IMG/VR virus record: IMGVR_UViG_3300025889_013270
Coordinates: 1 to 21,057 of that record
Direction: 5' to 3' (one strand)
Length of the DNA: 21,057 nucleotides
Source: a virus
The position numbers were made by a program, and so were the translations under genes. Below, piece after piece: positions 1,080-5,508 of this stretch (within the stretch, counting starts at the first letter, position 1; each line of letters starts with the position of its first letter). The notes beneath the pieces were generated by a model. That model ran no database searches. It was not told the DNA's origin and saw only the letters and a list, made by a program, of their open reading frames with translations.

Positions 1080-1431
1080 GGTTCTATGCCTTGTTGTTTT
1101 AGCAGCTCTGGCTATACCTGTAGGCATACTCTTTACTGTAGCGCACGCTTTATGGTTTTGCCTGGAAAACATTAGTAGCGCAATTTGGATGCTCATATAC
1201 GACTTCTTTAGCTCTGTAAGTAAAGTAGTATCAGTTTGTGCGGCATCGTTTTTAAACGCGACTTTAATTAAGCAAGAGGGCATACCGTTTGGCACGCATT
1301 CCGTATCTGCTGTGCTGGGAGCAAATCAACGGGAGATGACACTTACTGATTTAGGTATTTGGCTGTCAGATTTTTTGGACAGCATCGAAAAACATCACTG
1401 TCGCACGGCGGCACAAAAAGCAGACATATGA
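1051..1431 (+). CDS. Small inner-membrane protein, function unknown
   Basis: 126 residues from the ATG at 1051. A longer reading from the TTG at 904 is possible but that extension lies entirely inside the preceding gene in another frame and is Pro/Ser-rich, so it is rejected. Residues 8-35 are strongly hydrophobic (CLVVLAALAIPVGILFTVAH) with a second, weaker hydrophobic stretch at about 36-60, so one or two membrane passes with a Lys-containing N-terminus are likely. The C-terminal third is soluble and ends in Cys/His/Lys-rich sequence. It overlaps the previous gene by 29 bases and the next one by four (ATGA). A role at the host membrane is inference; it is not a recognisable holin. Confidence 0.6.
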   Translation: MAGFLKKIFKVLCLVVLAALAIPVGILFTVAHALWFCLENISSAIWMLIYDFFSSVSKVVSVCAASFLNATLIKQEGIPFGTHSVSAVLGANQREMTLTDLGIWLSDFLDSIEKHHCRTAAQKADI

Positions 1432-1553
1432 GTCAAACACTTCTAAGTATCCTCCAATACTTCAACGGAACTCCACCTCCTTATAACGCAGCCTTAGATT
1501 TAAATAACGACGGATGGATTACCGTTTTGGATTTGTTGCTTGCTTTATCGTAG
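1428..1553 (+). CDS. Dockerin-like EF-hand micro-ORF (41 aa)
   Basis: A 41-residue reading frame starting with ATG at 1428 in an ATGA overlap with the membrane protein. The last 18 residues, DLNNDGWITVLDLLLALS, match the calcium-binding loop plus helix of a type I dockerin / EF-hand repeat (Asp/Asn at positions 1, 3 and 5, Gly at 6, Asp at 12). The preceding LLSILQYF stretch resembles the linker between two dockerin repeats. The sequence parallels the C-terminal module of the metalloprotease just downstream. Its 3' end overlaps the protease start (1514) by 40 bases in another frame. It could be a genuine peptide, a remnant of a deleted larger protein, or part of a frameshifted gene. Confidence 0.5.
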   Translation: MSQTLLSILQYFNGTPPPYNAALDLNNDGWITVLDLLLALS

Positions 1554-2518
1554 GCGCGTTAAACGCTCAAGAATTGTGTTATGCTTTTGGCAACAATCCT
1601 CCAGAGGATGTGTCGAACAGAAGCGAAACGAATTGGAAGTACGTACACAGCGTAGTTCACATACATTATCCTGATGCGGCAAGTTTGGCAAACATCGAGC
1701 CTACTATTGTTTACGATGCCATTAGTTCTGTAAACGAAGAATTTGCTTCTGCCGAAGTCAGTGTAAGCCTTGTAGCACTTGAGTACCACGAAATACCTGA
1801 GTTAGATAGTACGGTTTGTTTTCCGTACAATATCAACGCTATGCAAGCATACATTGCACCGTTGCAATGGGACATAGCTTCTTATATGAACATACACGTA
1901 TTTCCAGAATTTTGTGGAGGCATCTTGGGATTCGCGTATTTGTACTACCTGTCATCTCAATACGCTGACGGTGTTTATGTTCGAAGCGATTGTTTTGGAA
2001 GAATGGGTAACCACCTACTGGAAGACAGAAATCTGAACAAAACGCTTATTCACGAAGTCGGTCATTACGTAGGTTTGTATCACGTCTTCCAAGGTATCGA
2101 CTACTGCGGTGAAGAAGAATCGGATTGTCAGGCTGTCAACGACCGAGTGTGCGACACACCACCTACAAAAGTGAATTGGAGTTGTGAAAACCCTATCTGC
2201 CCTACTGGGGCATACAATTACGAAACGAATAACCATATGGATTATTACGTTGATTCTTGTCGCACTACTTTTACTTATGGACAAATTGAACGTATACACA
2301 ACACCTTACCTTCTTGGCGACCTGATGTTTTACAAGAAAATGTATATTGTATAGGAGACGTAAACAATGATTTAAACGTAGGCATCCAAGATTTGCTGAT
2401 TCTTTTTTCGCATTTTGGCACATCATACGATGGTCAAGCTGACATCAACAAAGACGGCATCATAAGCGTACACGATTTAAATGAAATATTCAGTAATTGG
2501 TCAAGTAGTTGCCAGTAA
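1514..2518 (+). CDS. Secreted pappalysin-like (M43-type) zinc metalloprotease with dockerin-like C-terminus
   Basis: 334 residues. Residues 1-18 form a Sec signal peptide (hydrophobic FGFVACFIVGA, probable cleavage ALNA|QE). The zinc motif HEVGHYVGLYH at 180-190 is a full HExxHxxGxxH metzincin site with catalytic Glu181, and NHMDY at 240-244 supplies the Met-turn. The Cys-rich stretch between them (C198, C205, C213, C224, C229) and a second aromatic/Asp segment after the Met-turn resemble the M43 cytophagalysin/pappalysin subfamily. Residues 279-333 form a dockerin-like pair of EF-hand loops (GDVNNDLNVGIQDLL and ADINKDGIISVHDL) bracketed by C279 and C333. The gene sits eleven bases before the portal gene. 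A signal peptide implies export from the infected cell, unlike a prohead protease. Family level is inferred from motifs only. Confidence 0.85.
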   Translation: MDYRFGFVACFIVGALNAQELCYAFGNNPPEDVSNRSETNWKYVHSVVHIHYPDAASLANIEPTIVYDAISSVNEEFASAEVSVSLVALEYHEIPELDSTVCFPYNINAMQAYIAPLQWDIASYMNIHVFPEFCGGILGFAYLYYLSSQYADGVYVRSDCFGRMGNHLLEDRNLNKTLIHEVGHYVGLYHVFQGIDYCGEEESDCQAVNDRVCDTPPTKVNWSCENPICPTGAYNYETNNHMDYYVDSCRTTFTYGQIERIHNTLPSWRPDVLQENVYCIGDVNNDLNVGIQDLLILFSHFGTSYDGQADINKDGIISVHDLNEIFSNWSSSCQ

Positions 2519-2528
2519 AAAAAGTTAG

Positions 2529-4280
2529 ATGAAAACGAAGCTAGGAGTAGTAGACTATATGCGGTACGAGAAACCGCTGTTTTATAGCGATTCAAACAAA
2601 GACTGGGTATTCTTTGGAGAAGACAATTTGTACCCAAACTACCTAGATGACTTGTTTATTTCAAGTTCAATTCACGGAGCAATCGTTACGGGTAGTGCCG
2701 ATATGATTTATGGTGAAGGATTAGAATCAGACGGCAAGGATGACAACGTAGACCAATGGTTAAAGCTAAAGGGATTGTTTCGTCACAATTGTTTGAAGCG
2801 TGCAGCGTTTGATTTAAAGCTATATGGCAACGCTTACTTGCAAGTCATTTGGTCACAAGACCGCAGCGTGATAAGCGAGGTATACCACGTCCCTGCGAGT
2901 ACAATTCGTTGCGGCAAGGCAGACGACAACGACCAAGTAGAAGTGTATTATCACAGCACGAACTGGATGGAGTGCGACAAGTCTACATTTAAGCCAACTC
3001 CTATCCCGCGTTTCAATACTAGCGACCGCACTGCACCTAGCCAAATCCTGCACATCAAATCGTATAGCCCAGTCAGTTTTTTCTATGGCTTGCCTGATTA
3101 TGCTGGAGCTACTTCGTACATCGAACTCGACAAAAACATTGCTGAGTTCCACTTGCAAAACATCAAAAACGGATTGTTTCCAAGTATGGTACTTTCGTTT
3201 AACGGAGGTATTCCTACGGACGATGAGCGACGAGATTTGGAGCGATTGATTTACGACAAGTTTGGAGGGGCAAGTAACGCGGGAAAGATTCTGATGACTT
3301 TCAACGACGGGCAAGATTCAGCACCTACAGTTGAGCCTTTCAACTTAGCCAACCCACACGACACGTATGACTTCTTAGCAAAGCAAACCTTCCAAGAAAT
3401 ATTGTCGGGTCACCGTGTGACCAGTCCGTTGTTGTTTGGGCTGCGTTCAGAAGGTGGAGGCTTTGGAAGCAACGCCGATGAAATGAAGGACGCATACGAC
3501 CTATACAGCAAGACGGTAATCGAGCCGTTCCAAAATATTTTGCTAGAAGGTATCGAGCCTTTGCTTGCGACCAACAGCATCATTTTGGATGTGTACTTCA
3601 AAGACCTCGTGCCAGCGTCATTTATGGAACAAAAAGCCGAAGAAGAGGAAGTAAAAAAAAAAATCTTTTCGGAGCAACCAGTTCGAATCACAGAGACCCA
3701 AGGCTCAATTTGGTTAAATCATCTGGCGGACAAGGATGCACCACTGCCGAAAGAATTCTTTCTGCTGAAGGAGGAGGTAGTCAACGACACGTCCGATGAC
3801 AAACGCCTGCACACGAAATACGAATTTGGTCTGGAAGATTATTCTAATTATGACCTCGTTTCTGATTGGGGCGATGTCGTAAGTCCACAAGGTAATTTGT
3901 TTGCCGTGCGGTATCAATATTTTAAAGCTACCAGTAAACAGCCTGTAGGTGAAAGTCGTGACTTTTGTATTGAGATGATGGACTTGGCTCAAGGGGGAGT
4001 ACAGTACCGTTACGAAGACATTGCTAATATGAGTTCGGACGGGGTGAACGGACAGTTTGCAGCAGCGGGACAAAGCACGTATGATATTTTTGAGTGGGCT
4101 GGCGGAAAGAACTGCTACCACGGATGGAAAAGACTTATATATGTATATGTACCAGATGGTCTTCCAGATACCACGGATGGGCTGTACGAGGATTGGGACG
4201 CAGTTATGCAGCGTGTCGGAAACAATCCTTATGTAGTTCAAAAAGGAGACGAAGCTATCGCACCAATTGACAAGCAATAA
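2529..4280 (+). CDS. Portal protein with C-terminal extension
   Basis: 583 residues. The N-terminal 370 or so residues have the portal pattern seen in Bacteroidetes phages: GEDNLYPNYL, a YGNAYLQVIW strand, the YSPVSFFYGLPDY segment, then the long clip/stem helices and the HRVTSPLLFGL tunnel-loop-like region. The portal forms the dodecameric ring through which DNA enters the capsid. A run of eleven A (3653-3663) at about residue 376 marks the end of the core. The remaining 200 residues (FCIEMMDLAQ, YEDIANMS, YDIFEWAGGKNCYHGWKRLIY) form a second domain seen in head proteins of related phages, perhaps a minor-head-protein-like domain; its function is unclear. The stop overlaps the next start by one base. 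Confidence 0.8.
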   Translation: MKTKLGVVDYMRYEKPLFYSDSNKDWVFFGEDNLYPNYLDDLFISSSIHGAIVTGSADMIYGEGLESDGKDDNVDQWLKLKGLFRHNCLKRAAFDLKLYGNAYLQVIWSQDRSVISEVYHVPASTIRCGKADDNDQVEVYYHSTNWMECDKSTFKPTPIPRFNTSDRTAPSQILHIKSYSPVSFFYGLPDYAGATSYIELDKNIAEFHLQNIKNGLFPSMVLSFNGGIPTDDERRDLERLIYDKFGGASNAGKILMTFNDGQDSAPTVEPFNLANPHDTYDFLAKQTFQEILSGHRVTSPLLFGLRSEGGGFGSNADEMKDAYDLYSKTVIEPFQNILLEGIEPLLATNSIILDVYFKDLVPASFMEQKAEEEEVKKKIFSEQPVRITETQGSIWLNHLADKDAPLPKEFFLLKEEVVNDTSDDKRLHTKYEFGLEDYSNYDLVSDWGDVVSPQGNLFAVRYQYFKATSKQPVGESRDFCIEMMDLAQGGVQYRYEDIANMSSDGVNGQFAAAGQSTYDIFEWAGGKNCYHGWKRLIYVYVPDGLPDTTDGLYEDWDAVMQRVGNNPYVVQKGDEAIAPIDKQ

Positions 4281-4885: not shown

Positions 4886-5092
4886 ATGGACTACGATTTA
4901 ATTGGTGTCATTATCGGTGCGGTGGGCGGTATCATTGCAACTTGGGTCAAGATGACAAACGAAGTAACGAAAATTAAGAGCCGCCTATACTCGCTCGAAA
5001 AGCAAGAAACCAAGGTTCAAGAGACGCTAGAGGTGTTGGTGAGTGGCATCAACGAAATCAAACTATTGCTGGCTAAAAAAGGCATAGAGTGA
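4886..5092 (+). CDS. Holin-like small membrane protein with coiled coil
   Basis: 68 residues. Residues 3-22 are a transmembrane helix (LIGVIIGAVGGIIATWV), followed by a heptad-like charged coiled coil (residues 25-65, KIKSRLYSLEKQETKVQETL). This layout, one N-terminal membrane span then a cytoplasmic or periplasmic coiled coil, is common for phage holins and holin accessory proteins of the XhlA or pinholin-like type. Its stop overlaps the GTG start of the amidase (GTGA), tying the two together translationally. The leader before its ATG ends with AAAGAG. Function is inferred from size, topology and the lysin next door. Confidence 0.65.
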   Translation: MDYDLIGVIIGAVGGIIATWVKMTNEVTKIKSRLYSLEKQETKVQETLEVLVSGINEIKLLLAKKGIE

Positions 5093-5508
5093 GAACAATA
5101 AACAAAGTCATCCTGCACTGTTCGGATACAATCGAAGGTGCGCATATCAACGTTGATACCATCCGTCAATGGCACGAAGCACGAGGATGGGATGACATTG
5201 GATACCACTACGTAATTTATCTCGACGGCACAATTCATAAAGGTAGAGACCTGGACATAGTAGGTGCGCATTGTCGAGGCAACAACAAAGATTCCATTGG
5301 AGTTTGTTACATAGGCGGGCGTAGTGCCAAGGAAAACAAACCAGCAGATACTATGACAGCCGAACAGGAGTTGGGTTGGTTACAGTTGTGGTATGCTTTA
5401 AAGACTTTATTCGGTAACATCAAATTACACGGTCATAACGAGTTCAGCGAAAAAGCGTGTCCTTCGTTTGACGTACAAGAGAAATACAAATTCCTAATCA
5501 ATGAATAA
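5089..5508 (+). CDS. N-acetylmuramoyl-L-alanine amidase (endolysin)
   Basis: 139 residues, GTG start at 5089 inside the upstream stop. This is a compact Amidase_2 domain of the T7 lysozyme type, close to the usual family length with no extra binding domain. Visible residues: H10 in VILHCSDT (zinc ligand), Y39 in IGYHYVI (counterpart of the T7 catalytic Tyr), H116 in GHNEFS and C124 in KACPSF (zinc ligands, eight apart as in T7 lysozyme), with K122 two residues before the Cys. It cleaves the bond between muramic acid and the stem peptide, releasing progeny phage. No signal peptide, so it would depend on the flanking holin-like proteins for access to the wall. Confidence 0.92.
   Translation: MRTINKVILHCSDTIEGAHINVDTIRQWHEARGWDDIGYHYVIYLDGTIHKGRDLDIVGAHCRGNNKDSIGVCYIGGRSAKENKPADTMTAEQELGWLQLWYALKTLFGNIKLHGHNEFSEKACPSFDVQEKYKFLINE

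Follow-up and report, generated by a model that had tools for sequence, protein, structure and literature searches.

What use would a phage have for an exported metalloprotease that ends in a dockerin-like tail, and why is the gene for it found immediately upstream of a portal gene? The question is raised by an IMG/VR record of 21,057 bases (the window, meaning the whole stretch of DNA analysed), which carries genes for a portal protein, a terminase, a DUF6712 protein, a LamG-like virion protein and an amidase. The relevant features, all on the plus strand, are:

1033-1431, +: small membrane protein, upstream of the protease; a homologue precedes the holin in contigs L030, L040 and L139 (tblastn)
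1428-1553, +: mini-dockerin ORF, 41 aa, one calcium loop, overlapping the protease start by 40 bp
1514-2518, +: M43 (pappalysin) metalloprotease with a dockerin-fold tail, predicted to be exported, 334 aa (Pfam PF05572, fold match)
1514-1570, +: putative Sec signal peptide, residues 1-19, read from sequence
1577-1579, +: Cys22, candidate cysteine switch (zymogen latency), invariant just past the leader in 74/74 sequences
2051-2083, +: zinc motif HEVGHYVGLYH, residues 180-190; His180, Glu181, His184 and His190 in 74/74 sequences
2231-2245, +: Met-turn NHMDY, residues 240-244; Met242 and Tyr244 in 74/74 sequences
2348-2512, +: dockerin-fold tail, residues 279-333; two calcium-loop-like repeats between Cys279 and Cys333
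2529-4280, +: portal protein, 11 bp downstream of the protease (phrog_33693, E 6.6e-75)
4886-5092, +: XhlA/Rz-like small membrane protein with a coiled coil; weak PHROG and Pfam matches only; homologues adjoin the protease elsewhere
5089-5508, +: N-acetylmuramoyl-L-alanine amidase endolysin (phrog_822, E 6e-51); homologues lie shortly after the protease in L028, L030 and L139

No PHROG match was obtained for the small membrane protein at 1033-1431.

The protease was assigned to the pappalysin family by a Pfam profile search (PF05572 Peptidase_M43, E 4.9e-16, 59.4 bits against a cut-off of 23), and its matches among PDB sequences (phmmer) included ulilysin (2e-11), mirolysin (4e-10) and PAPP-A. 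In structure comparison, a full-length AlphaFold2 model based on an alignment of 36 phage sequences (mean pLDDT 71) matched ulilysin (3lum) with Z 18.0 and mirolysin (7od0) with Z 17.8; for non-pappalysin metzincins, Z was 13.1 or lower. The first-pass annotation had proposed an exported M43-type protease with an HExxHxxGxxH site and the Met-turn MDY, and had looked to structure prediction for a metzincin fold; all of these elements are borne out by the profile, the fold and a leader-like N-terminus throughout the family. Among the 74 full-length ORFs (the window's included), 41 of which are less than 85% identical, every catalytic residue is retained: His, Glu and Met are kept in 74/74, and the Gly of the zinc motif is replaced by Ser in some relatives. 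Prohead proteases are cytoplasmic serine-type enzymes (ClpP/U9/S78) of the capsid operon; the window protein, a zinc metzincin with an export leader and no prohead-protease profile match, is not one of them, as had been stated from the letters.

The hydrophobic N-terminus ends NAQ/ELC, and a comparable leader is present in 74/74 full-length sequences. A lipoprotein reading of this leader (FVAC, residues 7-10) was rejected, since the h-region is too short and Cys10 occurs in only 2/74 sequences. Spanin-type anchoring was likewise not found: the 74 sequences share no conserved lipobox, and no membrane segment past the leader was recognised by reading. Invariant Cys22 occupies the same place as Cys23 of mirolysin, which blocks the zinc of the zymogen and is followed by Gly (PMC6949598); unlike in mirolysin, the residue after Cys22 is not Gly, a comparison made on sequence only. 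Both a cysteine switch and calcium dependence are known in the M43 family (PMC6949598). Ten further near-invariant Cys residues in the 74 phage ORFs could form five pairs, with Cys22 left free.

The tail was modelled separately because residues 192-239 were of low confidence in the first full-length model. The resulting model (pLDDT 91) matched dockerin 2y3n with Z 11.2 and an rmsd of 1.4 over 59 residues, and the Dockerin_1 profile (PF00404) scored just below its cut-off at residues 281-323 (22.7 against 22.9 bits); the earlier suggestion of two C-terminal calcium-loop repeats in a dockerin-like tail thus holds at the level of the fold. Six loop positions, five Asp and one Gly, are invariant in 40 sequences. 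A profile search for cohesin (PF00963) found none on 30 phage records, the only records searched, and docking through a cohesin partner is therefore unsupported. The mini-dockerin ORF, which differs between the window and contig L001 by four synonymous changes and one nonsynonymous change, is related to ORFs of 42-53 aa in further phages. As a separate observation, stand-alone one-loop dockerin-like ORFs of 41-62 aa occur in phages that carry the protease and in others that lack it (window 1428-1553; L184 3529-3657; L189 3096-3245; L197 4820-4954; L102 17775-17936; L060 13395-13583) and possibly represent a family of phage half-dockerin peptides; contig G003 also begins with an ORF that has a dockerin-like motif.

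The possibility of an assembly chimera, with differing junctions, had been raised for this locus. The same arrangement recurs on two independent contigs, L001 (96.6% nucleotide identity over 9.9 kb) and L002 (99.8%), and the protease gene is therefore not a product of misassembly. Between the window and L001 it has accumulated nine substitutions, all at third codon positions and eight of them synonymous; the gene is under purifying selection. Nor are the homologues confined to bacterial chromosomes, the other case considered in the first-pass annotation: alignment-based scans of viral contigs identified relatives on about 90 IMG/VR contigs, and a second scan found a relative encoded in 104 of 149 stretches. 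Contigs from L063 onward were left uncounted as more distant M43 forms, many with a bacterial-type architecture, which lie outside the core in the tree. The only protease match among 50,697 GenBank phage records, MT837139, was rejected as a phage homologue, as its ORFs indicate a bacterial chromosome fragment. This entry (MT837139.1, L004), filed as "Bacteriophage sp.", is GC-rich, encodes trigger factor, other housekeeping-like ORFs and its own M43 protease, and is probably a piece of an actinobacterial chromosome.

Two scans of a genome collection brought up no prophage carriers and only nine distant relatives, all Bacteroidota exoproteases and at most 38% identical. These exoproteases (e.g., L104 and L106) are the closest cellular relatives of the phage form. 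They end in a type 9 secretion system (T9SS) sorting tail (TIGR04183, detected by HMM in the two tested, with a similar tail seen by eye in several others), whereas this tail is missing from nearly all phage forms: TIGR04183 and PF18962 gave no match in the window protein or in L018, L037, L046 and L053. In a tree of 63 rows, the bacterial rows all lie outside the phage core, and viral contig L058 alone interrupts that core. The best explanation of this distribution is a phage-specific M43 metzincin lineage, in phages of Bacteroidota-type bacteria. The lineage shares with ulilysin and mirolysin (MEROPS M43B) the catalytic domain, zinc motif, Met-turn, fold (Z 18), a Cys in a short pro-segment and secretion; it differs in being only about 22-25% identical to them, in its dockerin-fold tail, its Cys without Gly, its extra conserved Cys residues and its lysis-gene neighbours. 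Four tested members gave no PHROG match with an E value of 0.01 or lower, and the window protein none above noise; the literature searched yielded no matching description.

The position next to the portal gene turned out to be a local feature. Among isolated phages, the Nonlabens phages P12024S/L have the closest portal, with 30% identity, and 31 contigs encode a portal related to that of the window. Among these, the protease adjoins the portal only in one phage species (window, L001, L002). L184 and L185, with portals 97% identical to the window's, have no protease, and the mini-dockerin homologue directly precedes the portal in both; the remaining related-portal contigs, among those listed with a readable upstream side, also lack it. 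As the junctions show on comparison, the protease is lodged between the mini-dockerin and the portal. Since close relatives are without the gene, it is accessory in the window group, and it is therefore not essential for lysis there. The description of the gene as lying between virion genes is accordingly correct for the window, with the portal 11 bp downstream, and incorrect for the family, in which the neighbours are lysis genes; the proposed tie to virion genes did not survive the search beside other portals.

Throughout the family, the protease gene is accompanied by genes for lysis. A holin-like gene lies within 1.5 kb on the same strand in 34 of 41 non-redundant members, and some lysis gene in 37 of 41, against 15% and 26%, respectively, for the other genes on the same fetched pieces; this is a conservative baseline, since each piece had the protease at its centre, and the contigs counted, though not fully independent, include several different genome types. 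The genes scored were holins of two families, Amidase_2, M15 peptidase and DUF5675, whose function is not established. The window is an exception, as its nearest recognised lysis genes (XhlA-like and amidase) lie 2.4 kb downstream, past the portal and DUF6712 genes. Immediately upstream of the protease there is usually a holin of neighbour cluster C1 (phrog_3427, E 2e-19; 35 of 45 records), and the start of the protease often overlaps the holin stop (e.g., 226-657 and 654-1814 in L028). The upstream pair in L019, L021 and L025 includes a holin of a second family (phrog_2359, E 5e-12 in L025), unrelated to the first. Amidase_2 is found near the protease in L028, L030, L043 and L139, an M15 peptidase (E 1.6e-17) is nearby in L181, and proteins with a transmembrane segment plus coiled coil adjoin the protease in many phages. 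In L015-type contigs, the protease gene ends the forward-strand late block. The idea that the protease could be the sole endolysin-like gene was discarded: Amidase_2 is present on 3 of 31 records, with M15 or DUF5675 beside others. A virion protein of the L018 type gave a weak match to an endolysin profile.

Taken from the side of the holin, the association is looser. With the same holin family as anchor, the following slot is variable, since it holds the protease in 20 of 76 loci and other genes elsewhere, namely XhlA-like genes, thioredoxin-like genes and, in nine loci, an exported protein with a T9SS-like tail. The post-holin position may thus serve for cargo in general and not for lysis in particular.

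Phages of Bacteroidota-type bacteria appear to share a widespread, previously undescribed gene whose product is an exported zinc protease with a putative calcium-binding tail; its almost constant position next to lysis genes suggests a role in release. The reading that we prefer, with a probability of about 0.5, is that the M43 lineage belongs to the lysis or release module in phages of Bacteroidota, a function that we infer from the sequence, gene context and lineage established above. Late in infection, the protease would be exported via Sec as a latent zymogen, held inactive by the cysteine switch as in its relatives, and would be retained in the periplasm, a location suggested by the loss of the T9SS tail of the bacterial relatives. 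Once holin and endolysin had breached the cell, calcium from outside and self-cleavage would activate the enzyme, again as suggested by its relatives. It might then cut envelope and surface proteins, with the result that the outer envelope or extracellular matrix opens; alternatively, it might keep progeny from being trapped by stripping debris of receptors. This reading is favoured by the proximity to a holin in 34/41 members, by the two unrelated holin families, by three kinds of cell-wall or lysis-region enzyme among the neighbours, by the overlap with the holin stop, by the separation from the bacterial relatives, by purifying selection, by the known cysteine switch and calcium dependence of the family and by the record of spanin-less phages; against it stand the 20/76 occupancy of the slot, the 2.4-kb distance to the lysis genes in the window, the absence of the gene from close relatives of the window phage and the missing Gly after Cys22. 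Release or matrix breakdown after lysis had been among the roles listed in the first-pass annotation and is kept here as one option, without a tie to virion genes. As a conserved exported protein tied to two unrelated holin families, the protease is a specific candidate, open to experiment, for an additional factor in lysis or release.

Predicted export is also compatible with action before lysis, in which the protease would remove receptors or other surface proteins and bring about superinfection exclusion or altered contacts with neighbouring cells. The bacterial relatives are T9SS exoenzymes, and the post-holin slot of other phages encodes secreted proteins with T9SS-like tails and a secreted protein of 347 aa, all of which fits such remodelling. 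However, the window protein and the tested core members have no T9SS tail and hence no known route across the outer membrane, and the coupling to holins points to very late expression; we consider this surface role unlikely, albeit the strongest of the competitors.

Slightly less probable in our estimate is a host-derived moron, an exoprotease that is freed with the lysate and digests matrix or algal protein with no direct part in lysis. Lambdoid phages carry toxin genes next to their lysis genes, which offers a parallel for a moron parked at the end of a late operon; the protease is accessory in the window group and closes the forward-strand late block in L015-type contigs. A matrix-degrading role was proposed for the metallopeptidase of Maribacter phage Molly (PMC8776804), and this proposal, together with the question of spanin-less phages (PMC6139136), is the extent of the literature precedent. 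The enzyme of Molly and Colly_1 (PMC8776804) resembles the window protease as a short exported zinc peptidase of a flavobacterial phage, but it has 199 aa and a lipoprotein domain, is named matrixin in a structure library, and matches the window protease only partially by fold (TM 0.33) and not by sequence. In Tenacibaculum phage Larrie, a metallopeptidase gene and the holin gene bear consecutive ORF numbers (ORF 103/104; PMC10013915), a comparison made by numbering only. Chance parking of a moron is countered by the long conservation of the protease alongside several cell-wall enzymes and holins of two unrelated families, which suggests partnership.

Lysis by phages of Gram-negative bacteria is described as the work of holin, endolysin and spanin. 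About 13% of surveyed phages, including phages of Bacteroides and Croceibacter, have no identifiable spanin, and the means by which such phages disrupt the outer membrane are an acknowledged gap (PMC6139136). A special form of the release reading, counted within its probability, would have the protease itself disrupt the outer membrane as a spanin substitute. A strict lipobox scan of five long M43 contigs and the window called only one lipoprotein ORF, a rough rule that is no proof of missing spanins, and spanin-less Bacteroidota phages are on record (PMC6139136). The likeness to spanins is nevertheless one of analogy only, to an envelope-acting function of the lysis cassette: spanins are lipoproteins or transmembrane proteins with no enzyme domain, whereas the window protein is predicted to be a soluble exported protease. 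We know of no soluble protease that fuses or breaches membranes, and the adjoining proteins with a transmembrane segment plus coiled coil could act as i-spanins in many phages, so that full substitution seems doubtful. More tentatively than the release role as such, yet less doubtfully than full substitution, we propose a new class of lysis factor for Bacteroidota hosts: an exported latent zinc protease, controlled by a cysteine switch and calcium, that would act with holin and endolysin and partly replace spanins.

A virion-associated protease that aids entry, its tail attached to a virion protein, is very improbable: the portal neighbour in the window and the dockerin-like motifs in stand-alone ORFs and G003 could be cited for it, but no cohesin was found on the 30 phage records, the family neighbours are lysis rather than tail genes, and the signal peptide would direct the protein away from cytoplasmic virion assembly, so that nothing indicates the virion membership and help in penetration envisaged earlier.

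Several other genes near the slot deserve mention. In nine contigs (L241, L252, L260, L263, L265, L267, L270, L273 and L279), the holin is directly or closely followed by a gene for an exported protein (690-844 aa) in which GCTDP..NY motifs recur and which ends in a T9SS-like tail; PF18962 matched the four tested just below its cut-off (E 1.7e-3 to 7e-6), and these phages seem, as judged from their sequences, to encode cargo for the host type 9 secretion system. The 347-aa exported protein that follows the T9SS-tailed protein (L265 6543-7586 and homologues) has only a weak SH3_5 match in Pfam and by eye could be an outer-membrane barrel. An exported thioredoxin-like protein of about 105-123 aa (PF00085, E 5e-6 for that of L271) is encoded between holin and protease or nearby in L013, L022, L029, L034 and L271; its neighbour in the lysis region is a protein with a transmembrane segment plus coiled coil. 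A basic peptide of 43-46 aa (SRPGVHAKTKTSKNKKSKNYKKxYRGQGR) is conserved beside the protease in several phages (L028 1811-1942, L030 9095-9226, L019 2421-2555, L025 7249-7383 and others), and a GroES-like cpn10 gene, named from sequence, lies near the protease in L016 (7682-7966), L030 (9668-9946) and L176 (2771-3052).
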